Below, one piece after another: positions 36,411-55,079 of a stretch of 64,000 bases of DNA. Origin of the DNA: Dokdonia sp. 4H-3-7-5. Lineage in GTDB: Bacteria > Bacteroidota > Bacteroidia > Flavobacteriales > Flavobacteriaceae. The notes beneath the pieces were generated by a model that saw only the letters and a program-made list of their open reading frames with translations, had not been told where the DNA came from and made no database searches. Within the stretch, counting starts at the first letter, position 1, and each line of letters starts with the position of its first letter. The stretch is taken from positions 2,636,001 through 2,700,000 of the forward strand of contig NC_015496.1 of assembly GCF_000212355.1 (NCBI RefSeq). Direction: 5' to 3'. The translations under genes were made by a program, and so were the position numbers.

Positions 36411-37772
36411 TTAAACAGTCATAGAAAATAGCTGAGTCTCTGGTTTATTGCGCTGTAATCTCATGTCAAACGGAAGGCATATATTTCTTACAAAAGGACG
36501 TCCCTTTTCTGTAACAATTAATTTTCTTGCATGTATTTCTAGAAGCCCATCGTTTTCAAGTTCCTTTAATTTTATAAGCACATCTGGAAGCTCTGCAAAA
36601 TTCCCTTGATTATCGTCCCAGGAAGTCTCAAAAGAACACATCAAATTAAGAATATGTTGTCTGATGATAAGATCTTCTTTAGTAAGGATATGACCTCTAA
36701 AAATAGGTAGAATCCCATCTTCTATAAGTTGTTGATACTCTTCTATATTTTTTACATTCTGAGCAAAACTATACCAGCTATCACTTATGGCAGATACTCC
36801 TAAGCCTATCATAACCTGTGTTTTGCTAGCGTTATATCCCATAAAATTACGATGTATAGTTCCCGCTTGCTGGGCTCCAAATAAAGCATCTGTTTTAAGC
36901 GCAAAGTGATCCATACCTATCTCGACATACCCTGCTTTTATAAGCATTGTTTTACCTATTTCATATTGCATTCTCTTTTGGTCTGCGCTAGGTAAATCTC
37001 CATCCTTAAATCCTCGCTGTCCGTTTCCTTTTATCCATGGCACGTGAGCGTAGCTATAAAAAGCGATACGGTCTGGCTCAAGAGAGATGGTTTTATTAAT
37101 GGTATTTATAACATCATCTTGCGTCTGGAAAGGTAGTCCATATATGATATCATGCCCTACAGATTCATAACCTGTTGTACGGGCGTTTTCTGTAGCGCTT
37201 TGCACGTGTACATAAGGTTGCACACGATTTATTGCTCTCTGTACCGTTGTATTGTAATCTTGAACTCCATAACAAACTCTAGTAAATCCTTTATTGTACA
37301 GAGCTTCAAGGTGTTCTTTTGTGGTATTATTAGGATGTCCTTCAAAGCTGAGTTCAAAAGTGCTAACCTTTTTTGTAAGTGCAAAAATCCCGTCCATAAG
37401 ACGTTCTAGATGTGCTGGTGAGAAAAATGTAGGAGTTCCTCCACCTAAGTGTAGTTGTTTAATCACCGGCTTGTCTCCTAGTAAAGTTACGTACATCGCA
37501 AGTTCCTTAAGTACAGATTGTATATAAGGAATCTCAACATCATGATTCTTTGTAATACGCTTGTTACATCCACAAAAAGTACACATACTCTCACAATAAG
37601 GTAAATGTATATAGAGACTTATTCCTTGTGAAGTATTGCTTTCGCGAAAGCTTTCTTGTAAAGTATTCTTCCACTGGGTGAGTGAAAAGTTATCTTGATC
37701 CCAATAAGGCACAGTAGGATAACTTGTATATCGTGGTCCTGCCACATTGTACTTTGATATAAGGGTACACAT
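36411..37772 (-). CDS. hemN: Oxygen-independent coproporphyrinogen III oxidase
   Basis: A radical-SAM enzyme of haem synthesis that works without oxygen. It has the 4Fe-4S motif CESMCTFCGCN near residue 60, LGGGTPTFF, and the HemN C-terminal domain (about residues 360-440); 453 residues is the HemN length. It is preceded by a regulon operator with perfect spacing, in keeping with the FNR/FixK control known for hemN. A palindrome copy is read as SFRESN. Confidence 0.95.
   Translation of the reverse strand: MCTLISKYNVAGPRYTSYPTVPYWDQDNFSLTQWKNTLQESFRESNTSQGISLYIHLPYCESMCTFCGCNKRITKNHDVEIPYIQSVLKELAMYVTLLGDKPVIKQLHLGGGTPTFFSPAHLERLMDGIFALTKKVSTFELSFEGHPNNTTKEHLEALYNKGFTRVCYGVQDYNTTVQRAINRVQPYVHVQSATENARTTGYESVGHDIIYGLPFQTQDDVINTINKTISLEPDRIAFYSYAHVPWIKGNGQRGFKDGDLPSADQKRMQYEIGKTMLIKAGYVEIGMDHFALKTDALFGAQQAGTIHRNFMGYNASKTQVMIGLGVSAISDSWYSFAQNVKNIEEYQQLIEDGILPIFRGHILTKEDLIIRQHILNLMCSFETSWDDNQGNFAELPDVLIKLKELENDGLLEIHARKLIVTEKGRPFVRNICLPFDMRLQRNKPETQLFSMTV
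37638..37651. repeat. Dispersed palindrome, partial copy (coding)
   Basis: GCTTTCGCGAAAGC in hemN, read on the minus strand as SFRESN. Confidence 0.85.
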
Positions 37773-37905: not shown

Positions 37906-37953
37906 CCACTCGTCGACACTTAAACGTCATCCGTCTATAGTAAAGGACTCGTT
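37906..37953 (+). promoter_or_regulatory. Proposed LytTR boxes upstream of the NO-sensing operon
   Basis: CCACTCGTC at 37906-37914 and TCATCCGTC at 37927-37935, exactly 21 nt apart, plus a looser match GGACTCGTT at 37945. A -7-like CAACTTTG lies at 37990-37997; GAATATTG at 37970-37977 is the alternative. It shares the motif with the promoters of the T9SS gene and the polysaccharide locus. Confidence 0.6.
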
Positions 37954-38017
37954 AGACTTAATTATTGAAGAATATTGACTTTAATTGACCAACTTTGGAA
38001 ATATAAAGATCAATACT

Positions 38018-38434
38018 TTGGGGACAAGAAAATTAAGAATACTGCTCGTTGAGGACGATGCCATTGAGGTAATGAAACTCAAGCGAGCTATAGCAAAGCT
38101 AGAAATGAACCATGAGCTCATAGAGGCAAAAAATGGTGAGGAAGCACTTGAAATACTTAAAGACCACTCGGTCTTACCAGACGTGCTGTTTCTCGATCTT
38201 AATATGCCAAAAATCAACGGAATAGAGTTCTTGAAGATTTTGAAAAAAGACGAAATTTTACGATTTTTACCAACAGTCATGCTCACAACCTCAAGTAACC
38301 GCAAGGATATACTAGCTTGTTATGACACGGGAGTAGCAGGTTATATTATCAAACCTTTGAAGTACGATCACTACGTTGAGAAAATAAAATCGGCGTTAGA
38401 GTACTGGAGTATGAATGAATTAATCAAAGCATAA
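38018..38434 (+). CDS. Single-domain response regulator (receiver)
   Basis: A stand-alone REC domain: LRILLVEDDAIEV, phospho-acceptor in LFLDLNMPKING (Asp60 from this start), TTSSNRKD and YIIKPLKYD. No output domain, so it probably acts by phosphotransfer or protein contact, perhaps as phosphate sink or shuttle to the HPt below. There is no ATG. TTG codons occur at 37985 and 38018; I choose 38018 because a -7-like CAACTTTG (37990-37997) would place the transcript start after 37985. The H-NOX gene overlaps its stop by 1 nt. Confidence 0.88.
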   Translation: MGTRKLRILLVEDDAIEVMKLKRAIAKLEMNHELIEAKNGEEALEILKDHSVLPDVLFLDLNMPKINGIEFLKILKKDEILRFLPTVMLTTSSNRKDILACYDTGVAGYIIKPLKYDHYVEKIKSALEYWSMNELIKA

Positions 38435-38976
38435 TGAAAGGAATTGTATTTACAGAGTTTTTAGATCTTGTTGAAACAAAATTTGGTTTAGAAATGGTTG
38501 ACACCATTCTTAATGAATCTGAATTACCTTCTAATGGTGTTTATACAGCAGTAGGAACGTATAGCTTTACAGAAATGGTGAGCTTACTTACTAATTTAAG
38601 TAAGGAAACGGGACTTGTAATTGATGATTTATTACTGGTATATGGAGAGCACTTTTTCTCAGTGGTAGAGAAAAGTTATCCTTCTTTTTTAAAGCAATAT
38701 ACGGATCCAATAGAGATGCTTTCATCTATAGAAAACCACATACATGTGGAAGTTAGAAAGATTTATCCAGATGCAGAGTTGCCTACTTTTACCATAGAAG
38801 AGAAGACTCCAGAAAGTCTCGTAATGATCTATAAGTCAAGTAGAGCCATGCATGCCTTCGGTCGCGGATTAATGAATAAGACTTTTGAGTTTTTTAATAC
38901 AAAAGCTACTATCTTAGTTGAAAAATTAAAAGAAAACGGAACCGAAGTAAAATTCAGCATAGCAACATATGAGTGA
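38434..38976 (+). CDS. H-NOX haem domain protein (nitric oxide / oxygen sensor)
   Basis: The 180-residue protein is a full H-NOX domain: MKGIVFTEFLDLVETKFG at the N-terminus, GVYTAVGTYSFTEM, the proximal haem ligand His104 in HVEVRKIYPDAELPTF, and the haem-propionate motif Y133-x-S135-x-R137 (YKSSR). The distal pocket lacks an obvious H-bonding Tyr, in keeping with NO selectivity, but this was judged by eye. The stop overlaps the next kinase gene by 8 nt, so H-NOX and kinase are translationally coupled; in other bacteria H-NOX controls its adjacent kinase. Confidence 0.93.
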   Translation: MKGIVFTEFLDLVETKFGLEMVDTILNESELPSNGVYTAVGTYSFTEMVSLLTNLSKETGLVIDDLLLVYGEHFFSVVEKSYPSFLKQYTDPIEMLSSIENHIHVEVRKIYPDAELPTFTIEEKTPESLVMIYKSSRAMHAFGRGLMNKTFEFFNTKATILVEKLKENGTEVKFSIATYE

Positions 38977-40945
38977 CTCCAAAATTAAGATGTACGAAAG
39001 AGCGCTAGCGCGTGAAAAGGCCGCTAGAAAAGAAGCCGAGCGTATTCTTGAGGAAAAGTCATTAGAATTATATCACAAATCTGAGGAGTTAAGAGTTTCA
39101 AATTCAAAACTTGAAGATGTTGTAAAAGAACGCACTTCTGAACTTGAGGGAGTATTTGAAAACATAGTAGATGCCTATGTAGTTATGGAGTTATCTGGCA
39201 ATGTTATCAAAATGAATGACGCAGCCATTACACTTCTTGGGTACACGCTAGAAGATAACTTCAACCTTTGGGACATTGTTCACCCAGATGAAAATGATAA
39301 AGTTGTTGAAGGTTTTGAGGTTCTCACCACAAAAGGAGCAATAACAGATTTTCAAATAAAAATAATAATGTCTTCAGGATCCATTAAATTGGTTCACATT
39401 AATGCAAGTATTGTTTTTAATGATGAAGGAAAACCTATCGCTGCTCAAGGTATTGTAAGGGATATTACGCAAGACAAGGCAGCCGAGCAGCGCCTTATAG
39501 ATTCAGAAAATCGATTATCTGCACTTATTTTAAACCTAGAAAGTGGTATTCTACTTGAAGATGAGCATCGCAATATTGTAATCACAAATAATCGCTTCTG
39601 CGATTTTTTTAATATTCCATCAAGTCCAGAGCAACTTATAGGTGTAAACTGCGAGCATGCAGCTGAAGATAGCAAACATCTTTTTAAAGATCCAGAAGAA
39701 TTTGTATCAAGAATAAATACGCTTACGCGAAAAAAAGAACAAGCGCTATCTGATGAGCTTAAATTAGTTGATGGTCGTATCTTGGAGAGAGATTTTATTC
39801 CTATTTATGAAGAAGGTATTTATAAAGGTCACCTTTGGACGTATAGAGATGTTACCTTGAGAAGAAAGTTTCGCGAAAGCATAGAAGCAGAACGTCAAAA
39901 ATATAGTGACATTATTGCAAACATGAACTTGGGACTTATTGAGGTCAATCTTGATGATGAAGTCTTGATGATCAATAACAGTTTTGAATTGTTATCTGGT
40001 TATACCGAAGAGGAACTCCTAGGTAAAAAAGCGAAGGAGATATTACTTACTCCAGCGTCTCAAAAACAACTCACTCAAGAGAATAATGATAGGTTGAGCG
40101 GAGCGTCAAATTCATACGAAGTGCAGGCTATAACTAAGAGTGGTGAATTGAAACACTGGCTAATAAGTGGTGCTCCAAACTATAATCTTAATGGTAAAGT
40201 CATAGGCTCTATAGGAATACACCTCGATATAACAGAGCTCAAAAGTTTAGAGATACAAAAGGAAAATCTTTTAAAGAAGCTTGAAAAAAGTAATGATGAG
40301 CTGCAGGAGTATGCACATGTAGTTTCTCATGATCTTAAAAGTCCGCTTAGGAGTATAAATGCACTTGTAAATTGGATTAAGGATGATAATGAAGATGTCT
40401 TCACTAAAGAAACAAAGAGTCATCTTGAGATGATAGATACTACTTTAGAAAAGATGGAGCAGCTTATATCTGATGTTCTTGAATACTCCAGTGTAGGATC
40501 TGAAAATGCACCTCGAGAAAAAGTAAATTTACAAGAAGTACTAGCAGATATAGAAACTTTACTTCACTGTCCAGAACATATAACATTAAATATTCATCCA
40601 GATTTACCTACGGTAAATGGTGATAAAGTCAAGTTACAACAGTTATTTCAGAATTTGATGAGTAATGCTATACGTTATTGTGATAAAGAAGAAGGTCTCA
40701 TAGAAGTAGGATACACAGAAAACAAAACACATTATACCTTTACGGTTAAGGATAATGGAATCGGGATTCCTAAGGAATACCATGATAAAATATTTAAAAT
40801 TTTTCAGTCACTTAATAACCATAAAGACTCGACGGGTATAGGACTTTCTATTGTTAAGAAAATAGTAGACCTTTATAAAGGAAGTATCTGGTTAGAGAGC
40901 AACGTAGGAGAGGGGACTACTTTCTTTTTTACATTACAAAAATAA
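38969..40945 (+). CDS. Multi-PAS cytosolic histidine kinase paired with H-NOX
   Basis: An N-terminal coiled coil (about residues 5-58) is followed by three PAS domains (about 60-170, 180-300, 310-425), HisKA with phospho-acceptor His454 (VVSHDLKSPLRS) and HATPase_c (QNLMSNAIRY, KDNGIGIPKE, STGIGLSIVKK). There are no membrane segments. The ORF begins inside the H-NOX stop region. It is the likely output kinase of the H-NOX sensor; the PAS domains may add other inputs. A partial palindrome is read KFRES. Confidence 0.92.
   Translation: MSDSKIKMYERALAREKAARKEAERILEEKSLELYHKSEELRVSNSKLEDVVKERTSELEGVFENIVDAYVVMELSGNVIKMNDAAITLLGYTLEDNFNLWDIVHPDENDKVVEGFEVLTTKGAITDFQIKIIMSSGSIKLVHINASIVFNDEGKPIAAQGIVRDITQDKAAEQRLIDSENRLSALILNLESGILLEDEHRNIVITNNRFCDFFNIPSSPEQLIGVNCEHAAEDSKHLFKDPEEFVSRINTLTRKKEQALSDELKLVDGRILERDFIPIYEEGIYKGHLWTYRDVTLRRKFRESIEAERQKYSDIIANMNLGLIEVNLDDEVLMINNSFELLSGYTEEELLGKKAKEILLTPASQKQLTQENNDRLSGASNSYEVQAITKSGELKHWLISGAPNYNLNGKVIGSIGIHLDITELKSLEIQKENLLKKLEKSNDELQEYAHVVSHDLKSPLRSINALVNWIKDDNEDVFTKETKSHLEMIDTTLEKMEQLISDVLEYSSVGSENAPREKVNLQEVLADIETLLHCPEHITLNIHPDLPTVNGDKVKLQQLFQNLMSNAIRYCDKEEGLIEVGYTENKTHYTFTVKDNGIGIPKEYHDKIFKIFQSLNNHKDSTGIGLSIVKKIVDLYKGSIWLESNVGEGTTFFFTLQK
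39867..39880. repeat. Dispersed palindrome, partial copy (coding)
   Basis: AGTTTCGCGAAAGC in the kinase gene, read KFRES between PAS2 and PAS3. Confidence 0.7.
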
Positions 40946-40949
40946 TATA

Positions 40950-42080
40950 ATGAGAACAGTACAACTACAACGCGACTCGTCTGGTTCATGGCACTATTTA
41001 AGTGAATCAATAACACTTAATAATCCGCTGGTGCTTATTCTAGGAAATCGTTTTCTTCTAGAAAAAGAAAGCGTTTTTGAGGAAGTAAGAGACTTATTTC
41101 CTTCAGGGCATCTTGTTTTTGGATCTTCTAGTGGTGAGATTGTAGCTGGAGCAGTAAATGATGAACATATCACCATAACTGCCATAGAATTTGAAAAGTC
41201 TTCCTTTGAGATTCAAACATTTAATATACATGAAGTAGGAGATGATAGTGAGAAGGCGGGATCTACGATAATTAAGAAGTTAACTGCAGAAGGCCTTAAG
41301 CATGTATTTGTGTTATCTGAAGGAAGTTTTGTAAATGGATCTGCGCTCACCAAGGGAATGCAAGGAGCATTGCCTAATGTTTTAATTACTGGCGGACTGT
41401 GTGGAGATGATGCACGTTTTGAAAAAACACTTGCTTCTTATAATGAGGCGCCAAAGGAAGGCGAGATTGTAGTCATAGGTTTTTATGGAGAAACTTTTGA
41501 AGCGTCATTTTCTATTTATGGTGGGTGGACACCCTTTGGACCAGAAAGGCTAATTACAAAATCTGATGGTAATATCTTATACGAGATAGATGGTAAACCA
41601 GCATTAGATTTATACAAAACCTACCTAGGCGATAAAGCAAAAGATTTACCAGGCTCTGCGCTTATTTATCCGCTCAATGTAAAAAGTGCAGAAAATGACC
41701 AGTCATTTGTGCGTACTATTTTAAATATAGATGAAGAGAAAAACGCGATGATTCTAGCAGGAGATGTGCCAGAGCAATCTAAGGTACAACTTATGATGAC
41801 AAATATGGATAGCATCGCTTCGGCATCAGAAACCGCAGCATTGAGGGCTATGGAGGGAAGGAATAATCCGCCACAATTAGCATTGCTTATAAGTTGTATA
41901 GGACGTAAATTAGTATTAGATCAACGTATAGAAGAAGAAGTTGAGGAGGTAATGAGTGTGATAGGTGATGATGTAGTGATAAGTGGGATGTACTCTTACG
42001 GAGAGATTGCCCCTTTTTACGGAGAACGTAGTTGTAAATTGCACAACCAGACCATGACAATTACCTTAATAAGCGAGTAA
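40950..42080 (+). CDS. FIST-domain sensor (NosP-like)
   Basis: FIST_N (about residues 25-220; LVFGSSSGEIVAG, ITGGLCGDDARF, VVIGFYG) and FIST_C (about 225-360; PGSALIYPL, LALLISCIGRKLVL, GMYSYGEIAPF) fill the protein. FIST proteins placed next to histidine kinases include the haem NO sensor NosP. Whether this one binds haem cannot be decided from sequence. It lies 4 nt after the H-NOX kinase and directly abuts a second kinase gene, the NosP-kinase arrangement. Confidence 0.88.
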   Translation: MRTVQLQRDSSGSWHYLSESITLNNPLVLILGNRFLLEKESVFEEVRDLFPSGHLVFGSSSGEIVAGAVNDEHITITAIEFEKSSFEIQTFNIHEVGDDSEKAGSTIIKKLTAEGLKHVFVLSEGSFVNGSALTKGMQGALPNVLITGGLCGDDARFEKTLASYNEAPKEGEIVVIGFYGETFEASFSIYGGWTPFGPERLITKSDGNILYEIDGKPALDLYKTYLGDKAKDLPGSALIYPLNVKSAENDQSFVRTILNIDEEKNAMILAGDVPEQSKVQLMMTNMDSIASASETAALRAMEGRNNPPQLALLISCIGRKLVLDQRIEEEVEEVMSVIGDDVVISGMYSYGEIAPFYGERSCKLHNQTMTITLISE

Positions 42081-43121
42081 ATGAATCCACTGTTAAAAAG
42101 ACAAATACGTAAATATCTTCCTGACGATCTTAAAGAGCGTGAGGATATGCAGGTCTTTTTTAATGCGGTGGCAGCATCGTATGATAATCTTGACGATCAA
42201 TTCAAGATGAACCAGCGAGCTATGCAAATAAGCTCAGATGAGTTATATGAGGCAAATAAGCAGCTTAGAGAAGAATCAGAACGCCAGCAAGGTTTATTAA
42301 TACGTTTACAGTCTGTAATAAATGCTGTACAACCTTTTGGTGAAGAAGATGGAGACATAGATATTGGAGAAACAAATCTAGCCGAATATATAAGCCAGCA
42401 GGCAGAGCAACTTATCCTAGTAAATAGGGATCAAGAATTACTTGTAAAAGAGCTTGCATTACAAAACCAAGAGCTCAATGATTATGCACACATTGTATCT
42501 CATGACCTCAAGTCACCACTGCGCAGTATTGAGGCATTAGTAAGCTGGCTTAAAGAAGATTATGGAGATGCTATAGGCGAGGAGGGAAAAACACAAATAG
42601 GGCTTATAGTAACCCATTTAGAAAAAATGGATGCCCTTATTACAGGAATCTTAAATTACTCTTCTATTGATAAGGAAGTTCGTACAGAGCGAAAAATAGA
42701 TTTAAATATTCTTGTAAAAGAGACTGTAGATCTCATGCATCTACCAGAACATATTACTATTAATGTACATAAGCTGCCCACTATTCTAGCAGATCGTTTT
42801 AAAATTCAGCAGTTGTTTCAAAACTTGATAGGTAATGCTGTGAGTAGTATTGATAAGCCTAAGGGAGTTGTAGAAGTAATTGCACGAAATCTTGATGACG
42901 TTTTCCAGTTTGAAATAAAGGATAATGGAAAAGGAATTAATCAGGCATACTTCCATAAGATTTTTCAAGTCTTTCAAAAGCTAGAAAATGATTCTGAAAG
43001 CACGGGAATAGGCTTATCTATCGTTAAGAAAATTGTCCATTTTTATGATGGTAAGATTTGGTTAGATAGCACCGAAGGTGTAGGGACCACATTTTATTTT
43101 ACACTACCTCAAACTACATAA
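42081..43121 (+). CDS. Cytosolic histidine kinase paired with FIST protein
   Basis: The N-terminal ~90 residues (MNPLLKRQIRKYLPDDL...EELYEANKQLREESERQQ) are helical and typical of kinases encoded beside FIST genes. A coiled coil, HisKA with His141 (IVSHDLKSPLRS) and HATPase_c (QNLIGNAVSS, KDNGKGINQ, STGIGLSIVKK) follow. There is no PAS or membrane segment, so its input must come from a partner, most likely the FIST protein whose gene it abuts with no gap. Its core is close to that of the H-NOX kinase. Confidence 0.9.
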   Translation: MNPLLKRQIRKYLPDDLKEREDMQVFFNAVAASYDNLDDQFKMNQRAMQISSDELYEANKQLREESERQQGLLIRLQSVINAVQPFGEEDGDIDIGETNLAEYISQQAEQLILVNRDQELLVKELALQNQELNDYAHIVSHDLKSPLRSIEALVSWLKEDYGDAIGEEGKTQIGLIVTHLEKMDALITGILNYSSIDKEVRTERKIDLNILVKETVDLMHLPEHITINVHKLPTILADRFKIQQLFQNLIGNAVSSIDKPKGVVEVIARNLDDVFQFEIKDNGKGINQAYFHKIFQVFQKLENDSESTGIGLSIVKKIVHFYDGKIWLDSTEGVGTTFYFTLPQTT

Positions 43122-43122
43122 T

Positions 43123-43440
43123 ATGGAACAGCCTAATCTTAATTATATAAAGGAACTTTCAGGTGGAGACGCAGGTTTTGAAAAAAAACTTATAGGCGTT
43201 GTACAAACAGAATTACCTCAAGAAATCGCCGAGTATGAAGGTAATATGAATGATTCCGCTTTCGCGAAAGCGGCCGAAAACGTACATAAGATAAAGCACA
43301 AATTAGGAATCGTAGGATTAGAAAAAGGGTACGAACTGGCCATTGCCTATGAAGATGAACTTAAGGAAGGAAAGTCTACCTTGAAAGAAGAATTTGATAG
43401 CATTCTAACCGCTGTAATCCATTTCATAAAAGATTTATAA
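43123..43440 (+). CDS. HPt histidine phosphotransfer protein
   Basis: A 105-residue four-helix HPt: VHKIKHKLGIVGLEKGYELA gives the phospho-acceptor His55 and the following Lys/Gly. It lies 1 nt after the FIST-linked kinase. It probably collects phosphate from both kinases and passes it to the LytTR regulator or the single receiver. An in-frame palindrome copy encodes SAFAKAAEN right before the active-site helix. Confidence 0.88.
   Translation: MEQPNLNYIKELSGGDAGFEKKLIGVVQTELPQEIAEYEGNMNDSAFAKAAENVHKIKHKLGIVGLEKGYELAIAYEDELKEGKSTLKEEFDSILTAVIHFIKDL
43257..43272. repeat. Dispersed palindrome (coding, AFAKA frame)
   Basis: CGCTTTCGCGAAAGCG in the HPt gene, read SAFAKAA. Confidence 0.9.
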
Positions 43441-43475
43441 TCTGTAAATTGCATAATAAATCACAAAATATCTAA

Positions 43476-44198
43476 ATGTTGAACTGTATAATTGTAGATG
43501 ATGAAACTGCGGCACGTACTATCGTATCGCATTTATGTAGCCAGGTAGATGAACTCAATGTAATTGATGAGTTTCCTAATGCAATGCAGGCAATCAAGTT
43601 TTTAAATAAGAACGAGATTGACCTCATATTCTTAGACATACACATGCCAGATTTTACTGGTTTTGACTTTATAGATTCGCTCAAAAACCCGCCTAAAATT
43701 GTACTTACAACATCAGATCGCGACTTTGCGATAGAAGCTTTTGAGTATGATTGTATTGTAGATTATCTAGTAAAGCCTATAACGCTGCCTAGATTTCTCA
43801 AAGCCATGCAAAAAGTAGAGAACTTTAAATCTCCGGTTGCACAAAAAACTGCGTTGCCTCAAGAAGCAAAACAAGAAGAGGCTTCAGAAAAGGAGATGTA
43901 TGTAAACATAGATAGGCGTCTCATAAAAATTGAGTTTGATAAAGTCTTTCTAGTAGAAGCAAAAGGTGACTACGTACTTATAAAAACCGAAGGAAAAAAT
44001 TATACCGTACATTCTACACTTAAAAAAATAGGAGAAAAACTACCAGATAGTCTTTTCTTAAAAATACATCGCTCTTACATTATTAATATTAAGAAAATAG
44101 TTGATATTGAGGACAATAGTGTCCTGATAGCTAGAGATGTAATCCCAATAAGTCGATCTAACAGACCTGAACTTATGAAGCGTCTTAACTTGCTATAA
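43476..44198 (+). CDS. LytTR-family response regulator
   Basis: A receiver domain (residues 1-120; phospho-acceptor Asp54 in FLDIHMPDFTG, Lys in DYLVKPITLP) and a LytTR DNA-binding domain (about 140-240; YVNIDRRLIKIEFDKVFLVEAKGDYVLIKT, FLKIHRSYIINIKKI). LytTR proteins bind two short direct repeats on one DNA face. It is the last gene of the NO-sensing operon, 35 nt after HPt. It is the natural candidate reader of the 21-nt-spaced boxes found upstream of this operon and of the surface-polysaccharide genes. Confidence 0.92.
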   Translation: MLNCIIVDDETAARTIVSHLCSQVDELNVIDEFPNAMQAIKFLNKNEIDLIFLDIHMPDFTGFDFIDSLKNPPKIVLTTSDRDFAIEAFEYDCIVDYLVKPITLPRFLKAMQKVENFKSPVAQKTALPQEAKQEEASEKEMYVNIDRRLIKIEFDKVFLVEAKGDYVLIKTEGKNYTVHSTLKKIGEKLPDSLFLKIHRSYIINIKKIVDIEDNSVLIARDVIPISRSNRPELMKRLNLL

Positions 44199-44209: not shown

Positions 44210-44260
44210 CCATTCGTCTACAGTAAATTACCACTCAACGATACAAGTATCAGTGCGGTC
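44210..44260 (+). promoter_or_regulatory. Proposed LytTR boxes upstream of the T9SS protein gene
   Basis: CCATTCGTC (44210-44218), CCACTCAAC (44231-44239) and a weaker AGTGCGGTC (44252-44260), each 21 nt apart. The last begins 40 nt before the -7 element TAATTTTG (44292-44299). Confidence 0.62.
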
Positions 44261-44327
44261 GAATAAATTGAAAATCAGGGTATAAACTGCCTAATTTTGT
44301 TTCTATAATCACATCAATAGAAGCATT

Positions 44328-46928
44328 ATGATTGCAAATTTCTACTCTCTTACAAGACAATTAATCGCACTAAGCTGCTTGTTGTATTTATTTACAGCCA
44401 GCGCACAAGATGTACCTTTTAATTGTGATTATAGTGCATATTTATTTCAATACAATGACGTGTACGCTATTGACCTTGCTTCTGGAAACTCTTTTCTAGC
44501 AGCAAAGGATATCACAGCAGGAAACATTAATGCAGCAGCATATAATCCAGCAGATGGGTACATCTGGGGATACTTATCAAGCCCTGCAAAATCTATTGTC
44601 AAAATAGGTAAGAACTTTGAGACTACTACTATCACTATAGATGCATTACCTTCTGGTAACAAGTATGTAGGTGACATAAGCGCTACAGGACAATATTATT
44701 TTAAAGCTGGTGGGAGCACATACTACACTGTAGACCTCGACCCAAATTCAGAAACATACACAGAGCTTACTGCAACTGCATCATTAACACAAAGTTTAAA
44801 TATACACGACTGGGCTTTTAATGCTGTAGATAACCAATTATATGCAGTAGAGAAAGTAACAAACATATTATATAGAATTAACCCAGAAAATGGACAGGTG
44901 CAACCTTTAGGTATTGTGCCTATCTTATCAGGGCTTAATTACACTTATGGAGCCGTTTATTTTGATGCATCAGGACGTTTCTACGTATCTGCAAATCAAA
45001 CAGGGACTATCTACGTGATACAGAGTGTTCAAGACCTTGATGGGATAGGAGTAATAGATTCAAATCTTTTTGCCTTTGGGCCATCTAGTGCAAGTAATGA
45101 TGGCGCACGTTGCCCTACAGCACCAGTGTTACAAGAAATTTGTGATAACGGAATTGATGATGACGGTGACGGACTTATTGATTGTGAAGATCCATCATGT
45201 TCAGGATACGGGATGTGTGCGACTATTGACCCAGAAGCATCTACAGGAAATAAAGGAGGACTAGAAAGTAACAATAGACTGTCTAACGCCATTGCAAAAC
45301 GTAATTTTAATCGTGCAAAGGAGAGTTATGAGTTTAACAAAGACCTTGCACCACTAGTAGATAAGAAAGAAACCTATGCCGTAAGAACTGCACAGGCCTT
45401 TACGCTAGCAGATCTTATCCCACTAGAGGAGATTGATGAAGATTATGTAGTAGAGTCTACACCTACAGATCTTGTAGCTATCACAAATGCAACAGATGTA
45501 TATGCTGTAGATTATATAAAAGGAGAGCTCTCAACCGCATCTATACTTGCACTTAAGACAGAAAATGGCGTGTATGAGCACACTAAGTATATCTGTGATC
45601 GTTTATTAGGAGCAGAGCTTATCTCTGTCTCTACCATAGCAATTAATGATCAACAATTTATTAAGTCCCTCATTAAAAATATAGATGGGAGTGTAGAATT
45701 TGTTTTAAGCCTTTCGGCGAAAATGGTAAACAACGAGACTGAGTTTGCTGTAGAAAGCCACTGGAATCTTGATAGCTATGAAGATGATGTAACATTTTAC
45801 AACTTCCAAATATGGGCAAACTCGATAGATGATTTACACAAACTAGGACAACAAGTTTTGAATCTTCTAGAAGTACAGAAGGCAGTAACTTCATATAATA
45901 CCTCGACACCACCTACCGTATTTGTAAAAAAAGGAAACTATAACAACGGAGCTTTACAACTAGAAATCATCAATACAAACGCAACCGAAAGTGTAACTTT
46001 TGACGCAGGAATAAGAGCAACAGAAACAAGCGAGATTGTAACGACGACATCTAGCATCTCACTTGGCGAAAATTACATCACACAAGTAACCATAGATACT
46101 GGATACTTATTTGACATAGGCTTTAGAATAGGCGACGGGATTAATACTCCAGATGATTTATTCTTATCTGACGGGCCATGGGGAGTAGATGCATCTCAAG
46201 AAGGGACAGAAGTAGTATCCTATGAGATTTCAGAAAATGAAGAAATATACGGGGATGACACCTATGCTATAGAACGCAACCTGTCACTCACTGCAACTAC
46301 AAACAGTTATGTTGCGTCATATAGAGCACTTACAGCACGTTTTCAAGCAGTAGATGTAAGCATGTTTAATGCATTACAAATGACAGCAAAGGGAACAGGA
46401 AACTTAGAAATCACTTTTGTAAAGGAAAGTATAGAAATCTGGGAAGATCAGTATAAAGCAACAATAGTACTTACAGACAACTATCAAGATTTTGATATCT
46501 CATTTGAGAACTTTACAAGTCCGTCGGGAACACCGTTGTTGCTTAATGATCTAGTAACGGTAGTATTTACCATGGTCTCTCAAGATGGAACGATGGTTAC
46601 AAAGGAAATGGATGTTAATGATATACAATTTGCAAACTCAGAAGTACTCTCAACCGAAGAAAATATAGTGGTAGCAGATGCATTAATAAATTACCCTAAT
46701 CCATTTATATCGCAGACCACAATACGCTTACCACAATCAAGTGCAACAGTACAAATCACAGTAGTAGATATGCTAGGACGCATAGTAGATGTACAAGATA
46801 TAACAACAAATAACGGAGGCCTAACAGCAGCCTATAACGCTCCAAATTTACAAACAGGTATCTACACTTATAAAATAATAGATAGTGCCTCACAGCAACA
46901 CAGTGGCAAGTTTGTCATAAAAAGATAA
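44328..46928 (+). CDS. Secreted protein with type IX secretion sorting domain
   Basis: A signal peptide (cleavage after TASAQ) is followed by a propeller-like region (about residues 30-260; YAIDLASGN, repeated YVGDISATG and INPENGQ segments), a calcium-type EICDNGIDDDGDGLIDCEDPSC motif, a central domain of unknown type (about 310-560), a carbohydrate-binding-like beta domain (about 600-770), and a C-terminal T9SS type A signal (NYPNPFISQTTIRL...GIYTYKI...GKFVIKR). It is exported to the cell surface. It lies directly downstream of the LytTR gene with its own boxes and a strong terminator behind. Confidence 0.88.
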   Translation: MIANFYSLTRQLIALSCLLYLFTASAQDVPFNCDYSAYLFQYNDVYAIDLASGNSFLAAKDITAGNINAAAYNPADGYIWGYLSSPAKSIVKIGKNFETTTITIDALPSGNKYVGDISATGQYYFKAGGSTYYTVDLDPNSETYTELTATASLTQSLNIHDWAFNAVDNQLYAVEKVTNILYRINPENGQVQPLGIVPILSGLNYTYGAVYFDASGRFYVSANQTGTIYVIQSVQDLDGIGVIDSNLFAFGPSSASNDGARCPTAPVLQEICDNGIDDDGDGLIDCEDPSCSGYGMCATIDPEASTGNKGGLESNNRLSNAIAKRNFNRAKESYEFNKDLAPLVDKKETYAVRTAQAFTLADLIPLEEIDEDYVVESTPTDLVAITNATDVYAVDYIKGELSTASILALKTENGVYEHTKYICDRLLGAELISVSTIAINDQQFIKSLIKNIDGSVEFVLSLSAKMVNNETEFAVESHWNLDSYEDDVTFYNFQIWANSIDDLHKLGQQVLNLLEVQKAVTSYNTSTPPTVFVKKGNYNNGALQLEIINTNATESVTFDAGIRATETSEIVTTTSSISLGENYITQVTIDTGYLFDIGFRIGDGINTPDDLFLSDGPWGVDASQEGTEVVSYEISENEEIYGDDTYAIERNLSLTATTNSYVASYRALTARFQAVDVSMFNALQMTAKGTGNLEITFVKESIEIWEDQYKATIVLTDNYQDFDISFENFTSPSGTPLLLNDLVTVVFTMVSQDGTMVTKEMDVNDIQFANSEVLSTEENIVVADALINYPNPFISQTTIRLPQSSATVQITVVDMLGRIVDVQDITTNNGGLTAAYNAPNLQTGIYTYKIIDSASQQHSGKFVIKR

Positions 46929-47248: not shown

Positions 47249-47572
47249 TCATTGTAGTTTAGGTTGATTATCTAATGCTTCTTTCACTACTTGAGCAACA
47301 CTGTCTTTCGTAATTCCTTTGTCATTACAGTATTTACTTTCAAGCCATATTTCCAGTAATTTAGCACCTTTACTAGCATTACAAGACATACAACAAAGTG
47401 CAATATTATCAACTCCATTGATTCTTATATCATTAACTATATGTTCCCAAGATTGTTTTGTTTTTCTGGATTTGTCGTCTTCCGTAAACGTTACTCCGCA
47501 ATAAACACAAGATTTATCTCTTGATAACACTAAGTTTTCTACTTCAATCGGAATTCCCCATTTATTTGCCAT
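47249..47572 (-). CDS. HNH endonuclease
   Basis: A 107-residue HNH nuclease with a zinc-ribbon: CVYCGVTF, the catalytic His in SWEHIVND, Asn in DNIALCCMSCNASKGAK. It cleaves DNA with a metal ion. It is 5 nt downstream of a second nuclease-like gene on the same strand. The codon use is more AT-rich than in its neighbours, which suggests transfer. Confidence 0.85.
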   Translation of the reverse strand: MANKWGIPIEVENLVLSRDKSCVYCGVTFTEDDKSRKTKQSWEHIVNDIRINGVDNIALCCMSCNASKGAKLLEIWLESKYCNDKGITKDSVAQVVKEALDNQPKLQ

Positions 47573-47577
47573 ATTAA

Positions 47578-48087
47578 TTAATCATAAAGACTAGTTATTA
47601 AGTTATTCCATTTTTTAGAAGCAAATAATATTCTTCTATTTGTTAAAACATTAGATATTCTTTGAGCTAAAAGTCCTCCATAAACCATAAGTTCTTGAAT
47701 GTTCATACTACTTTGAATGTGCTGATTACATCTTGCAGAGTAAAGACCAATATTTTCTATCGAACTACTTTTTTCAGGCATTTGATTTTGTGATAGTAAA
47801 TGTCCCCATTCATATTTTATATAATCAATATTCCAGTCCGAAGGTCTATTCCAACAAAGAGGTAATTCAGTTCCTTCCACGTGAAAAAATGGTCTGTGCT
47901 CTTGAGCCTCAAAAAGTAGAATTACTATTTCTCTTAAAATCTCTCTTTTCTGTTTGTCGAATCTAACATTTGAAAAATCATTCCTAATATGGTTAATTAT
48001 TGATTTAACTAATCGTTCAGATTCTAAATCCGTTTCATATGCTTGAGGATTCTTATTAATAATTCTTCGGTGTTCCATTAGTTTCAT
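47578..48087 (-). CDS. Putative HNH-like nuclease or partner, 169 aa
   Basis: A soluble protein. The central segment EWGHLLSQNQ...SIENIGLYSARCNQHIQSSMNIQELM places a His, an Asn and a His in the order of an HNH/His-Me finger, but without the zinc cysteines of its neighbour, so a nuclease role is likely rather than certain. It is upstream of and coupled to the HNH gene (5 nt). AT-rich, like that gene. Confidence 0.6.
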   Translation of the reverse strand: MKLMEHRRIINKNPQAYETDLESERLVKSIINHIRNDFSNVRFDKQKREILREIVILLFEAQEHRPFFHVEGTELPLCWNRPSDWNIDYIKYEWGHLLSQNQMPEKSSSIENIGLYSARCNQHIQSSMNIQELMVYGGLLAQRISNVLTNRRILFASKKWNNLITSLYD

Positions 48088-51206: not shown

Positions 51207-51265
51207 TAGTTTTTGTTGTAAATATATGTAAATCAATAAAATAGATATTTTTTTAAATATATTAG

Positions 51266-51715: not shown

Positions 51716-51745
51716 CCACTCGTCTACAGTAAAAATGTGCTCATC
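51716..51745 (+). promoter_or_regulatory. Proposed LytTR boxes upstream of the flippase unit
   Basis: CCACTCGTC (51716-51724) and GTGCTCATC (51737-51745), 21 nt apart; the second starts 41 nt before the -7-like CATCTTTG (51778-51785). Confidence 0.65.
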
Positions 51746-51810
51746 GAAATTTCAACCGAAAGCCTCTTAATTGCTTGCATCTTTGTACCAGAATCAAACA
51801 ACAAACTATT

Positions 51811-51945
51811 ATGGGACTTACAGTAATAAACAACAAAAGCACATTAAGAATAGTGCACAACGCAAGAACGATGTCAGCAGGAGCTACATTAAATGTAGTG
51901 CATAGAAAGGTTGATAAGCCAGTTATCCAACTAATGACTTATTAA
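51811..51945 (+). CDS. Small ORF ahead of the flippase gene, 44 aa
   Basis: ATG at 51811, 26 nt after a -7 element and under the proposed LytTR boxes. The peptide MGLTVINNKSTLRIVHNAR... ends VHRKVDKPVIQLMTY, with no signal peptide or membrane segment. It ends 9 nt before the flippase ATG, so it is a good candidate first gene of the operon, either a small protein or a regulatory leader. No family is recognised. Confidence 0.6.
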   Translation: MGLTVINNKSTLRIVHNARTMSAGATLNVVHRKVDKPVIQLMTY

Positions 51946-51954
51946 TCATCAATC

Positions 51955-53193
51955 ATGATCGCAATCCAACAAAAAATCAAAAAAGCACTTTCACCAGAGC
52001 AAATATTTATGCTCAGTGCCTTTGTAGTAAATGGAGGGAATTACCTCTATAACTTAGGCTTAGGTAGAGTACTAGGACCTGGAGCTTTTGCAGATGCTGC
52101 TATATTAATTACATTACTTCTAGTATTATCTTTTGTAGCGATGACTTTCCAACTCGCAGTTGCAAAGTTTACTACAGAGTTTGACGCATCAAAACAAGAA
52201 GCTTTTGTAAAAAAAGCTTATAAGCAGGCGACGACTTTTGGAATTATACTTGGAGCGATGATTGTAGTTTTTGCAACATCATTGCAATCGCTTTTTCAAA
52301 CGGCATCTCCTATAATGTTTACCATTTTTGGTTTAGCAGTTCCACTATATTTTGTGATGAGTGTAAATCGTGGAAACCTTCAAGGACGCAAATCTTTTAT
52401 TGAACTCTCTGTCACGTATCAGCTAGAGATGGTATGTAGACTTGCTCTTACTTTTGCATTCTTACTGTTTTTCAATATAGAATCCTCTGTAGCAGTATCT
52501 ACAGCAATAGCAATTTCTTTTATAGCTGGAGTGTTTCCTTTTAAGAAACTCACTTCAAAAAAAGCAATAGAGACAGCACTTACCTCAAAAGAGAGTAAGG
52601 CCGTAACTCAGTTTTTTGTACTCACAGCATGTTACGAGCTTACTCAGATCATTTGTAATAATAGTGACATATTGCTAGTCAAGCATTTTTTCCCATCGTA
52701 TGATGCAGGATTGTATGCCTCACTAGCTCTTATAGGTCGCGTTGTATATTTCGTAACTTGGATGTTTGTAATGTTATTACTTCCTACCGTAGTAACCATG
52801 CGTAAAGAGGGTAAAAACTCTGTTCCAGTACTTATGAAGTATGTAGGTTACATCACAGCCCTTGCAAGTGCGATTGTATTATTCACTTTTCTATTCCCAT
52901 CATTTGCCGTTCAGGTCCTCTTTGGAGATCAATATATGGCAATTGCTCCCTTACTTGGTTGGTATGCTCTTGCCACATCTTTTTTTGCTCTATCTAATAT
53001 TTTTGCCTACTACTATTTATCCCTAGATCATTATAAGCCTATTGTAATTGCGGCCATTTTTGGAGTGTTACAAATAGTGTTAATCATATTATTCCACGAT
53101 TCGTTATTTGATGTTGTGTTAGCCCAAGTTGCAGCGATGGGTGGTTTACTTATCGCACAACTACTTTACTTCTGGAAAATGCAAGTAAAGTAA
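51955..53193 (+). CDS. Polysaccharide (lipid-linked oligosaccharide) flippase, Wzx-like
   Basis: A polytopic 412-residue protein with about 12 hydrophobic segments (FMLSAFVVNGGNYLYNLGLGRVLGPGAFADAAIL at the N-terminus; later NNSDILLVKHFFPSYDAGLYASLALIGRVVYF is the classic Wzx/MurJ-superfamily signature). It flips undecaprenyl-linked units across the inner membrane. It is coupled to the 44-aa ORF upstream and followed by a terminator. Confidence 0.88.
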   Translation: MIAIQQKIKKALSPEQIFMLSAFVVNGGNYLYNLGLGRVLGPGAFADAAILITLLLVLSFVAMTFQLAVAKFTTEFDASKQEAFVKKAYKQATTFGIILGAMIVVFATSLQSLFQTASPIMFTIFGLAVPLYFVMSVNRGNLQGRKSFIELSVTYQLEMVCRLALTFAFLLFFNIESSVAVSTAIAISFIAGVFPFKKLTSKKAIETALTSKESKAVTQFFVLTACYELTQIICNNSDILLVKHFFPSYDAGLYASLALIGRVVYFVTWMFVMLLLPTVVTMRKEGKNSVPVLMKYVGYITALASAIVLFTFLFPSFAVQVLFGDQYMAIAPLLGWYALATSFFALSNIFAYYYLSLDHYKPIVIAAIFGVLQIVLIILFHDSLFDVVLAQVAAMGGLLIAQLLYFWKMQVK

Positions 53194-53261: not shown

Positions 53262-53408
53262 GCAATACTTTATAAAACTGCTATTGCCATGCAAGCGTCG
53301 TCCTTTTAATATGTTCTACATTGATAGAAAATAGTTTTGATAGCATTCTTAAGTGCTGTAATATAGTCTGTTGAGCTATATACATGATAAACCGCCTATT
53401 TTCAAAAA

Positions 53409-53459
53409 TCGTTTATCGAAGGTCAAATACCATTCGTCTACACTAATGGTCGAGTAAAC
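53409..53459 (+). promoter_or_regulatory. Proposed LytTR boxes upstream of the STAS-like gene and GT4
   Basis: TCGTTTATC (53409), CCATTCGTC (53430-53438) and a weak CGAGTAAAC (53451), each 21 nt apart. The last starts 41 nt before the -7-like CATATTTG (53492-53499). Confidence 0.6.
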
Positions 53460-53537: not shown

Positions 53538-53837
53538 ATGGCTTTAGAAATCAACAACATTTACGGAGTAACTTGTATCAAAGGAAAAGTATCTAGCACA
53601 CACGTTCAAGAAGTAAAAGGATACTTCAAAGCATTACTTACAATACAAGATAATGTAATCATCAACCTATGTGAAGTGAAAAAGGGAACTAAGAAGCTAG
53701 TAAGTGTTTTAGAAAACTTACAAGCTGAAATTTCAGAAGAAAAATCACTTAAGTTTTTTAGCTATCCAGAGCCAGCAGTAAAAGAATTATATGCACAGCT
53801 AAATAGTGAAGCCAACTATTACCAGGCAGCAGCATAA
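53538..53837 (+). CDS. Small STAS-like protein, 99 aa
   Basis: An alternating beta-alpha protein (EINNIYGVTCIKGKVSSTHVQEVKGYFKALLTIQDNVIINLCEVKKGTKKLVSVLENLQAEI...LKFFSYPEPAVKELYAQLN) that looks like a diverged STAS (anti-sigma-factor antagonist) fold; the Ser/Thr phospho-site is not obvious. It is 39 nt upstream of a glycosyltransferase and shares its promoter. A regulatory role in polymer synthesis would be inference. Confidence 0.6.
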   Translation: MALEINNIYGVTCIKGKVSSTHVQEVKGYFKALLTIQDNVIINLCEVKKGTKKLVSVLENLQAEISEEKSLKFFSYPEPAVKELYAQLNSEANYYQAAA

Positions 53838-53876: not shown

Positions 53877-55079
53877 ATGAAATTAGCAATCGTAACGGCC
53901 TATCCACCGAGCAAAGTAACTTTAAACGAATATGCATATCACTTAGTTAAGCACTTTCGTCAAAACCAAGAAGTAACAGAACTTGTACTTCTTACAGATG
54001 TAACTCCAGAACAAGCAGATATCACTTTTGAAGAAGATGGATGTGCAATCACCGTAAAGCAGTGCTGGAAATTTAACAGCTTATCTAATGTACTATCTAT
54101 TGCAAAGGCAGTAAGAACTACAAAGCCAGATGCAGTACTTTATAACCTACAGTTTATGAAGTTTGGAGATAAGAAAGTAGCAGCGGCTCTAGGACTGTTT
54201 TCTCCTTGGGTTTCTAAGTTAATGGGAGTAAAAACAACGGTGTTACTTCACAATATTATGGAAACTGTAGATCTTGATAGCGCAGGATTTACATCTAATA
54301 AACTTAAAATTAAAGCCTATAACTTTATTGGAGAGATGCTTACTCGTGTAGTTCTTAAAGCAGATACTGTAGCACTTACCATCAGTAAGTATGTAACTAT
54401 CCTAGAAGAAAAATATAACGCAAAAAATTGCGTACTCATCCCTCATGGAACTTTTGAAATTCCATTAGAACCTTCTTACCAAGCTGCTCCGGGTCCTCTT
54501 AAGATAATGACTTTTGGAAAATTTGGAACTTATAAAAAAGTAGAAATACTTATAGAAGCTGTACAAAAGGTAAGAGAAAACACAGGACGTGATCTTGAAA
54601 TCGTAATTGCGGGAACAGATAGCCCTAACACACCAGGATATCTAGCCGAAGTACAAGAGAGATATAAGCATGTTCCTAATCTTACTTTTACAGGTTATGT
54701 AGAAGAAGAAGATGTACCAGTGATATTCTCAGAGAGTGCGATGGTAGTTTTTCCATACACATCTACTACTGGAAGTTCTGGAGTATTGCACCAAGCAGGA
54801 AGCTATGGTAAAGCAGTAGTAATGCCAGATCTAGGAGATTTGAGCATCTTAGTAAAAGAAGAAGGATATAGAGGTGAGTTCTTTAATCCAGAAAGTATGC
54901 ACAGTCTTGCATCTGGTATAGAAAACCTAGTAATGAATGAAACGTACAGAACAGAAATAGCAAAAGCTAACTACAAAGCAGCAACAGCATTACCTATGAG
55001 CCGTATCGCTCAGATGTATCTAGATGTTTTTGCTGGAAGAAGTACTACTAATAACGAAGTAATATTGAAGGTAGCATAA
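53877..55079 (+). CDS. Glycosyltransferase family 4
   Basis: A GT-B enzyme: the N-terminal domain is MKLAIVTAYPPSKVTLNEYAYHLVKHF and the C-terminal domain has MTFGKFGTYKKVEILIEAV, NLTFTGYVEEEDVPVIFSESAMVVFPYTSTTGSSGVLHQAGSYGKAVV with the donor-binding Glu/Gly loop region. It transfers a sugar from a nucleotide-sugar donor to a lipid or sugar acceptor; specificity is unknown. The stop codon directly abuts the convergent glycosidase gene. Confidence 0.9.
   Translation: MKLAIVTAYPPSKVTLNEYAYHLVKHFRQNQEVTELVLLTDVTPEQADITFEEDGCAITVKQCWKFNSLSNVLSIAKAVRTTKPDAVLYNLQFMKFGDKKVAAALGLFSPWVSKLMGVKTTVLLHNIMETVDLDSAGFTSNKLKIKAYNFIGEMLTRVVLKADTVALTISKYVTILEEKYNAKNCVLIPHGTFEIPLEPSYQAAPGPLKIMTFGKFGTYKKVEILIEAVQKVRENTGRDLEIVIAGTDSPNTPGYLAEVQERYKHVPNLTFTGYVEEEDVPVIFSESAMVVFPYTSTTGSSGVLHQAGSYGKAVVMPDLGDLSILVKEEGYRGEFFNPESMHSLASGIENLVMNETYRTEIAKANYKAATALPMSRIAQMYLDVFAGRSTTNNEVILKVA

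Follow-up and report, generated by a model that had tools for sequence, protein, structure and literature searches.

A putative split phosphorelay connecting H-NOX and FIST proteins with a LytTR regulator and a conserved direct repeat in Dokdonia sp. 4H-3-7-5

Seven adjacent genes of Dokdonia sp. 4H-3-7-5 encode an H-NOX protein, a FIST protein, two histidine kinases (HK1 and HK2), a lone receiver (REC), an HPt protein and a REC-LytTR response regulator. They raise the question of how two sensors could be brought to bear on one output, and of which genes that output would control. The genes lie in a window of 64,000 nucleotides (contig NC_015496.1, positions 2,636,001 to 2,700,000), the whole stretch of DNA that was analysed, to whose numbering the following features refer.

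37906..37939, + strand: predicted LytTR-type site of the operon (PWM 48.4)
37985..38434, + strand: REC, single-domain receiver (PF00072, 79.5 bits; Asp71, counted from TTG 37985)
38434..38976, + strand: H-NOX (PF07700, 140.7 bits; His104, Tyr133-x-Ser135-x-Arg137)
38969..40945, + strand: HK1 (Pfam: three PAS domains, HisKA with His454, HATPase; no receiver)
40950..42080, + strand: FIST protein, NosP-like (FIST and FIST_C: PF08495, 143; PF10442, 123.4; His365)
42081..43121, + strand: HK2 (HisKA with His141, HATPase; no receiver and no Pfam sensor domain)
43123..43440, + strand: HPt (PF01627, 27.7 against a cut-off of 24.6; His55)
43476..44198, + strand: REC-LytTR response regulator (Pfam; Asp54), proposed output
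44210..44243, + strand: predicted LytTR-type site before the T9SS gene (PWM 39.7)
44328..46928, + strand: secreted 866-aa protein with DUF6923 and a T9SS sorting tail (ORF, Pfam), predicted target
51716..51749, + strand: weaker predicted LytTR-type site before the flippase gene (3 mismatches, PWM 22.1)
51955..53193, + strand: polysaccharide flippase-like protein (Polysacc_synt_3), predicted target
53406..53445, + strand: predicted LytTR-type site before a small gene and a glycosyltransferase gene (PWM 23.3)
53538..53837, + strand: 99-aa protein with no Pfam match, predicted target
53877..55079, + strand: glycosyltransferase family 1, predicted target

ORF calls and a Pfam search bear out the seven genes and their order as given in the initial annotation, as well as their tight spacing: neighbours overlap by at most 8 nt or are separated by at most 35 nt, and the FIST gene (end 42080) directly abuts that of HK2 (start 42081). 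The start of the REC gene had been misplaced at 37906, which is where the predicted LytTR-type site begins. The reading frame of REC opens with TTG 37985 or with the in-frame TTG 38018, the choice between the two being ambiguous.

The gene set, the catalytic residues, the gene order in relatives, the paralogy of the kinases and the conserved site with its position are read from the sequence. They probably reflect a four-step phosphorelay that is split among separate proteins, takes plug-in sensors and has an autoregulated LytTR output to surface and polysaccharide genes. H-NOX, responding to NO, would govern HK1, and the FIST protein would govern HK2. Both kinases would phosphorylate the common lone REC at Asp71, from which the phosphate would reach Asp54 of the LytTR regulator by way of His55 of HPt. 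Once phosphorylated, the regulator would bind 21-bp direct repeats beside the promoter of the operon itself (feedback) and beside those of the downstream T9SS surface protein gene and the adjacent polysaccharide genes, so that NO would act through transcription on the cell surface or matrix. Activation rather than repression at these promoters is our inference, as is the direction in which NO would act; inhibition of the kinase by NO-bound H-NOX is reported for S. oneidensis and V. cholerae.

The H-NOX protein has an HNOB domain well above threshold (140.7 bits against a cut-off of 25.5) together with the proximal histidine and the YxSxR motif. Among family loci His104, Tyr133 and Ser135 are each found in 100/100 and Arg137 in 96/100. 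Its nearest solved structures are 6bdd and 6bde (278-281 bits), the former being the H-NOX of Kordia algicida, for which the simulations in the accompanying paper are described as showing a pocket that prefers NO. Haem binding and NO selectivity are thus predicted by homology, which also supports the proposed role of this protein as NO sensor.

The FIST protein passes the Pfam cut-offs for both FIST and FIST_C. It had been equated with NosP, but the NCBIfam NosP model NF041558 gives it a score of 56.8 against a cut-off of 450, so far below that we label it no further than FIST family, NosP-like. Its His365 is conserved in 34/34 and 33/33 sequences in two comparisons and in 50/53 in family loci, and one might speculate that this residue is a haem ligand. 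No haem-bound FIST structure occurs among the 50 PDB fold matches listed, which are FBXO22, 'Toblerone'-fold enzymes and weaker matches. These matches and the low NosP score make it a serious alternative, if not the one we favour, that the protein senses a small ligand other than NO or carries no haem, so that the locus would combine one NO input with one other. Against this can be set the position of the gene beside that of its kinase, as with NosP, and the invariant histidine, if it does bind haem.

The combination of genes, formerly regarded as unusual, proved instead to be the usual H-NOX arrangement of the family, with FIST and HK2 in about half of the loci. We fetched 100 family loci, representing 98 of the 146 H-NOX-bearing genomes; since L038 lost its H-NOX in the simple ORF calling, residue and order counts out of 100 cover the other 99 fetched loci and the window. 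The H-NOX operon of G347 lies outside the fetched loci. A lone REC is encoded upstream of H-NOX in the same gene run in 98/100 loci, directly before it in 96 and with one gene between in L052 and L117. HPt and REC-LytTR are both present in 88/100, so that the gene order recurs in other Flavobacteriaceae, and this recurrence exceeds chance. The FIST gene and its kinase form an optional insert (51/100). Among 80 named loci HPt and LytTR are kept in 77, and one of the remaining three ends at a contig end.

The residues required at each step of a four-step phosphorelay, from the kinase histidine through the receiver aspartate and the HPt histidine to the aspartate of the second receiver, all occur here and are conserved among family loci: HK1 His454 in 98/98, HK2 His141 in 51/51, REC Asp71 in 98/98, HPt His55 in 92/92 and LytTR Asp54 in 88/88, the last two as previously noted for this operon. 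HPt is modelled as a helical bundle and is the genome's only match above the HPt Pfam cut-off. A second, weak HPt match (22.8 bits) was set aside, its 3.1-kb locus containing no kinase or LytTR. By sequence, HK1 and HK2 are close paralogues: in the trees that superseded a midpoint-rooted kinase tree, the clade of HK1 and HK2 holds 61/63 (UFBoot 91) and is free of the 23 other kinases of the genome. The two share 33 of 55 helix positions, as compared with at most 23 and 26 for other kinases of the genome. We propose HK1 as the partner of H-NOX, HK2 as that of the FIST protein, REC as a Spo0F-like first phospho-Asp carrier, and HPt as a phosphotransfer protein common to both kinases.

Since neither kinase is a hybrid, phosphate would likely travel from kinase His to REC Asp, HPt His and LytTR Asp. 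The single relay of the initial annotation is thereby upheld in a modified form: both kinases had been drawn as acting straight on HPt, and the lone REC had been given no role. That direct route might seem to be favoured by the position of HK2 directly before HPt and by the Vibrio H-NOX and NosP kinases, described as acting on the HPt protein LuxU; those kinases, however, are described as hybrids that carry their own receiver, a domain that HK1 and HK2 lack. To our knowledge, direct His-to-His phosphotransfer is not established chemistry. We therefore regard the direct route as highly improbable.

An unlikely but somewhat better candidate is a two-step scheme, in which the kinases would phosphorylate the LytTR receiver directly while the lone REC and HPt tune the signal as a side branch or as a sink for phosphate. 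The kinases are indeed non-hybrid, like those of ordinary two-component pairs, and in some loci outside the family lone RECs adjoin non-hybrid kinases. Covariation of the two receivers with HK1, HK2 or HPt (mutual information, background-corrected) yielded no interface signal above expectation and gave REC no preference over LytTR; with no enrichment at the expected interfaces, it was excluded from the argument on relay order. The two-step scheme nevertheless fits poorly with two sets of loci that favour the full relay. REC and HPt remain with kinase and LytTR even after loss of H-NOX: three genomes without it (L320-L322) retain REC-HK-HPt-REC-LytTR, together with the predicted LytTR-type site. 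Moreover, other families fuse the components in relay order, five loci of other Bacteroidia (L204, L213, L216, L217 and L219) encoding a kinase-REC-HPt fusion directly followed by REC-LytTR. In 11 loci outside the family a lone upstream REC accompanies such a fusion, so lone RECs can also serve some other function. Family RECs form a clade of their own in the REC tree, with no resolved sister, and the lone REC could therefore not be derived from a hybrid receiver.

An output in gene expression is now better supported than when first proposed, because a conserved LytTR-type site stands not only before the operon but also before surface and polysaccharide genes close by. The site consists of two 9-bp repeats of the CCATTCGTC type with 12 bp between them, that is, a 21-bp direct repeat with LytTR geometry. 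Its copies lie at 37906-37914 and 37927-37935 before the operon, at 44210-44218 and 44231-44239 before the T9SS gene, and at 53409-53417 and 53430-53438 before the small gene, the last pair being missed by the IUPAC pattern and seen with the PWM. The predicted regulated promoters are thus preceded by imperfect direct repeats, each of about 9 bp and with about 12 bp between them, as would be expected of a LytTR regulon. A spacing of about 12 bp is likewise described for the repeats of published LytTR sites, and a single base distinguishes the AlgR core CCGTTCGTC from CCATTCGTC. The conserved two-repeat site before these operons is new here.

With the PWM the site was found upstream of 148 of 162 distinct operons, that of the window included, with a median of 41 bits as compared with -0.5 for the best shuffled sequence. 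The PWM was refined on the same operon upstreams that it scored, which leaves the sites in front of other genes as the more independent evidence. Across the loci, after 14 named loci whose H-NOX protein was already represented had been dropped, 327 of 342 sites are intergenic in DNA that is 90.5% coding, and shuffled loci contain none. Among the 40 class-level loci, chosen by contig span and score from 72 genomes, a site above 12 bits is limited to L200, from the same family, and L234, from another order. In the Dokdonia genome itself, searched with the pattern (the PWM was used on the window and the loci of relatives), all three sites lie inside the window, two of them with zero mismatches because the pattern was written from these two. 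The strict pattern occurs in 66/146 genomes with H-NOX as compared with 3/251 others (reversed-pattern control, 0), and matches away from H-NOX occur in G196, G213 and G102.

The link between the LytTR regulator and the site is one of association, assessed with a Fisher test that treats related genomes as independent. The pairing is broken in 12 of 162 operons, seven with LytTR but no site and five with a site but no LytTR in the called run; five of these are explained or near misses. L066 is cut by a contig end, LytTR lies one gene later in L107, the site of L105 was found by another route, L292 scores 11.5 against a threshold of 12, and L294 has LytTR with no HPt called. These exceptions, and the seven LytTR matches of the genome, could point to another regulator as the protein that binds the repeat. 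We consider this very unlikely: site and operon LytTR co-occur at distant loci as well (L318 has the site, REC, REC-LytTR and a T9SS homologue) and in genomes that lack H-NOX, the H-NOX operon of G172 (L092) lacks both, and the strict pattern is nearly limited to genomes with H-NOX or the relay. Binding by the operon's own LytTR is thus the reading we retain.

In the window the predicted sites precede the operon (37906), the T9SS surface protein gene (44210), the flippase gene (51716) and the small gene with the glycosyltransferase gene (53409). In single-linkage BLAST clusters of the genes concerned, a site stands before 60/84 members for the T9SS protein, 11/50 for the flippase and 12/31 for the glycosyltransferase, the last two being minorities that speak against the proposal. 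The T9SS protein also co-occurs with H-NOX by a Fisher test in which related genomes count as independent. A cluster of genes of about 97 aa, found in relatives near the place of the 99-aa gene, has the site before 29/50 members; BLAST of the 99-aa protein against its members gave no match, so the two are tied by size and position only. The one cluster member tested (L101) gave a STAS match of 24 bits. A weak site at 50394 (12.0 bits), near a TPR gene, was dropped: among shuffled windows (n=20) one hit exceeded 8, at 11.4, and none of 86 members of the TPR/BcsC-like cluster is preceded by a site. Promoter-like elements follow the T9SS-gene site (TTG at 44268-44270, TAATTTTG at 44292-44299). 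The strict -7 box is enriched at T9SS targets, hardly so at operons (22/149 as compared with 12.4 expected), and occurs in 0/29 cases before the cluster of about 97 aa.

The initial interpretation of the locus is therefore partly supported. A search of the whole genome for both families gave no GGDEF or EAL match. Control of biofilms by NO is mostly explained through c-di-GMP, and since this genome has the full sensor set, it offers a direct test of NO action without c-di-GMP. The proposal names concrete, falsifiable DNA sites and a small list of targets, and relatives with or without FIST and its kinase, with or without H-NOX, or with LytTR moved provide a natural series for gain and loss of phosphorelay inputs. 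It is tempting, and on balance slightly favoured, to see here a c-di-GMP-free circuit from NO to matrix in many Flavobacteriaceae: a Spo0-like split relay in which sensor-kinase pairs are gained and lost, and whose self-amplifying LytTR regulator would switch T9SS and polysaccharide genes through the 21-bp repeat.

Our literature search found no experiment on this phosphorelay. FIST proteins are already listed among the neighbours of one H-NOX group in a review of H-NOX neighbourhoods, the available text of which does not describe the HPt/LytTR relay, the site or the targets (PMC8738867). Burkholderia NosP-NosK-NosR and Legionella NosP-NahK-NarR resemble the present locus in that a FIST protein is encoded with a kinase; their output is described as a c-di-GMP-type regulator, whereas HK2 would feed REC and HPt. 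The Legionella Hnox2-Lpg2458-Lpg2457 system likewise joins H-NOX to a kinase gene of non-operon-hybrid style and an adjoining CheY-like single-domain receiver, the accessible account mentioning no HPt or LytTR. AlgR, AgrA and LRS regulators are described as using imperfect repeats about 12 bp apart, with autoregulation in LRS; here control by an H-NOX relay is proposed, and the repeat is common to the operon and neighbouring surface genes.

In Vibrio, haem sensors beside the kinases HqsK and VpsS feed one HPt protein, LuxU, and then gene expression, much as proposed here, but those kinases are reported to be hybrids that feed quorum sensing, whereas the receiver is here a separate protein. The Shewanella system (H-NOX, HK, HnoB/C/D) also has a haem sensor beside a kinase; its outputs are described as mainly c-di-GMP enzymes together with the transcription factor HnoC, in contrast to the LytTR regulator found here. 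Compared with both, all parts are here in one operon, and the genome that carries it gave no match to GGDEF or EAL.

In the Spo0 system of Bacillus (KinA-Spo0F-Spo0B-Spo0A), discrete kinases act through a lone receiver, a phosphotransfer protein and a DNA-binding regulator. The proposed relay resembles it in its separate kinases and lone receiver, by which several kinases can share one route, and differs in its canonical HPt, which takes the place of Spo0B, in its gas sensors as separate proteins, in its LytTR output and in the grouping of all its genes in one operon.

ORF calling and Pfam naming place seven genes at 37985-44198, all on the + strand, in the set and order claimed in the initial annotation: a single-domain receiver (lone REC), H-NOX, a PAS-HisKA-HATPase kinase (HK1), a FIST protein, a HisKA-HATPase kinase (HK2), HPt and a closing REC-LytTR regulator. 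The tight spacing was likewise confirmed, with junctions between an 8-nt overlap and a 35-nt gap. The operon start had been put at 37906; no gene starts there, this base being the first of a predicted DNA site. The Dokdonia sp. genome is a single contig of 3,389,993 bases. The H-NOX encoded there shares 100% identity with the one in an uncultured Dokdonia record (L235), and has as best PDB matches 6bde/6bdd; the 6BDD record describes a crystallised H-NOX of Kordia algicida, and K. algicida OT-1 carries a complete seven-gene operon (L269). The gene hemN (oxygen-independent coproporphyrinogen III oxidase; 36411-37772, - strand; 421 bits against a cut-off of 325) is divergent to the operon, the two being separated by a gap that holds the 37906 site; a haem gene here adjoins a haem sensor.

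PF07700 matched 146 of 397 family genomes, and 100 H-NOX loci, mostly one per genus, were sampled from 98 of these; the counted set comprises 99 sampled loci plus the window, one (L038) having been dropped because its H-NOX was lost in ORF calling. Of these 100 loci, 98 carry an upstream lone REC (immediately before H-NOX in 96) and 88 contain HPt as well as REC-LytTR. FIST is encoded in 53, accompanied by HK2 in 51. Among 80 named loci, FIST occurs in 52, and HPt and LytTR are kept in 77. From these counts, the seven-gene operon is a family-wide system in which FIST-HK2 is an optional insert. A kinase gene stood next to FIST in 29 of the 30 FIST loci returned by a search (operon and free loci pooled). 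Single parts are duplicated in seven loci (L040, L061, L124, L075, L281, L052, L286), the additional copy being a REC-LytTR, an HPt together with LytTR, a FIST or a kinase. A full operon with the DNA site and similar-sized neighbours occurs in a genome of the same class from a different family and order (L234, G711), possibly through horizontal transfer. The sole other genome of the genus in the draw (G206) has neither an H-NOX match nor a strict site; close relatives can therefore lack the system. For one H-NOX group, a review has already noted nearby FIST genes (PMC8738867). In an open-access literature search, two papers match H-NOX with LytTR: PMC6769237, in which the LytTR term refers to AgrA nitrosylation, and PMC8396549. 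The same literature gave no paper joining H-NOX, FIST and Bacteroidetes, from which we do not claim absence from print.

Both FIST domains are present in the FIST protein (Pfam), which misses the cut-off of the NCBIfam NosP model. His365 is its one invariant His in two alignments and is found in 50 of the 53 FIST proteins of the family H-NOX loci. The best of five fold models (pLDDT 58.6-84.7) is usable at 84.7, and its best PDB matches, among those listed, are to the human FIST protein FBXO22 (TM 0.52, E 7e-11). The protein is a putative haem/NO sensor. A single route is proposed for the two sensors. One clade (UFBoot 91) of an 86-kinase tree holds 61 of the 63 HK1/HK2 sequences sampled and excludes each of the 23 remaining kinases of the genome; HK2 is monophyletic (24/24, UFBoot 78). 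Since the H-NOX-adjacent kinase of five FIST-less operons groups beside HK2 (UFBoot 76), the kinase cores appear to be exchangeable. Of 55 aligned positions in the phospho-His helix region, 33 are common to HK1 and HK2; the other kinases of the genome have at most 23 in common with HK1 and at most 26 with HK2. In the whole genome, no HPt match other than that of the operon exceeds the cut-off. The model of the operon HPt (pLDDT 93.6) matches HPt domains, best 3myf (TM 0.79, E 0.014), and no match in this fold search was below E 0.001.

Neither kinase has a receiver domain (Pfam), so that the HPt needs a separate Asp donor; besides the receiver of REC-LytTR, the operon holds only the lone REC. 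Three kinds of natural variant support a predicted order running from kinase His to REC Asp, HPt His and LytTR Asp. A class-level draw of 40 H-NOX loci (39 non-family) has 18 kinases of the fused HK-REC-HPt type, and REC-LytTR comes immediately after five of these (L204, L213, L216, L217, L219). A kinase-REC-HPt fusion also occurs in one family locus (L117). In three family genomes that lack an H-NOX match, REC-HK-HPt-REC-LytTR is retained, site included (L320-L322). Against this order, 11 of the 18 fused systems, these 11 being non-family loci, carry a lone REC ahead of H-NOX as well (L196, L197, L198, L206, L207, L214, L222, L230-L233). Covariation of kinases and HPt with the two receivers gave no interface signal above expectation.

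A strong motif is common to the upstream regions of 162 distinct operons. A 40-bp position weight matrix, refined on the same 162 regions that it then scored, places a site before 148 of them (score >12); the median is 41 bits, and shuffled sequence reaches -0.5 at best. In the site, two CCATTCGTC-type 9-mers are separated by 12 bp, giving a 21-bp direct repeat. LytTR sites in the literature are described as imperfect repeats, 8-13 bp long and spaced by about 12 bp, with CCGTTCGTC as the AlgR core (PMC4064291, PMC6193735). Plain relatedness does not account for the site, because the flanking bases are largely without conservation. Scanning 167 loci (14 duplicates dropped; score >14) gave 342 sites, 327 of them intergenic although 90.5% of the DNA was called coding, and zero in shuffled versions. 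A strict search pattern matched 66 of 146 H-NOX genomes versus 3 of 251 others, these three being the H-NOX-less relays; the reversed pattern gave zero matches across genomes. LytTR and site agree in 150 of the 162 operons and disagree in 12. The H-NOX operon of G172 (L092) has neither; the strict match of that genome lies elsewhere (L318), before a REC and a REC-LytTR with 60% identity to that of the window, then a homologue of the T9SS protein, an 866-aa secreted protein (44328-46928 in the window). G347, whose H-NOX operon was outside the sample, has a distant locus of this kind with a flippase homologue (L319), and strict matches distant from H-NOX also occur in G196, G213 and G102.

Matrix sites in the window
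37906, before the operon, 48.4 bits
44210, before the T9SS protein gene, 39.7 bits
51716, before a flippase gene, 22.1 bits
53409, before a small gene, then a glycosyltransferase, 23.3 bits

A whole-genome pattern search (up to 3 mismatches) returned only the 37906, 44210 and 51716 sites, all within the window. By eye, a 44-codon open frame (51813-51947, + strand) is visible downstream of the 51716 site, ahead of the flippase gene. The polysaccharide region is interrupted at 47249-48087 and 50847-51236 (- strand) by an HNH-like gene (below cut-off), a gene for a 169-aa protein without Pfam match and a DUF559 gene.

Genes of relatives with a site within 300 bp before them, by gene cluster
T9SS cluster, 60/84 members
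~97-aa cluster, 29/50 genes (STAS match in the one member tested)
Another small gene, 14/19
Glycosyltransferases, 12/31
Flippases, 11/50
UDP-sugar-dehydrogenase-like genes, 5/10
TPR/BcsC-like neighbours, 0/86
GH2-like neighbours, 0/32

No member of the ~97-aa cluster matches the 99-aa protein of the window. Homologues of the T9SS protein, some partial, occur in 84 of 146 H-NOX genomes versus 7 of 251 others, one of the seven being an H-NOX-less relay genome (G005). The TANNTTTG box, the Bacteroidetes -7 consensus, precedes the T9SS genes in 47 of 60 cases versus 3.6 expected from shuffles, two offsets 21 bp from each other accounting for 26 (offset 48) and 17 (offset 27) of the boxes. The strict box precedes the operon in 22 of 149 cases versus 12.4 expected, and the ~97-aa cluster in 0 of 29 versus 1.7; an activator-like geometry is thus shown for one target class only, the T9SS genes.

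With surface and polysaccharide genes as predicted targets, a response of matrix or attachment to NO, in either direction, would be the natural guess. Searches for GGDEF and EAL gave zero matches in the genome, the same searches finding matches in 8 and 6 of 14 control genomes. In the relays of S. oneidensis and V. cholerae, NO-bound H-NOX is described as inhibiting the kinase (PMC8738867); if such inhibition holds here, NO would lead to less phospho-LytTR.
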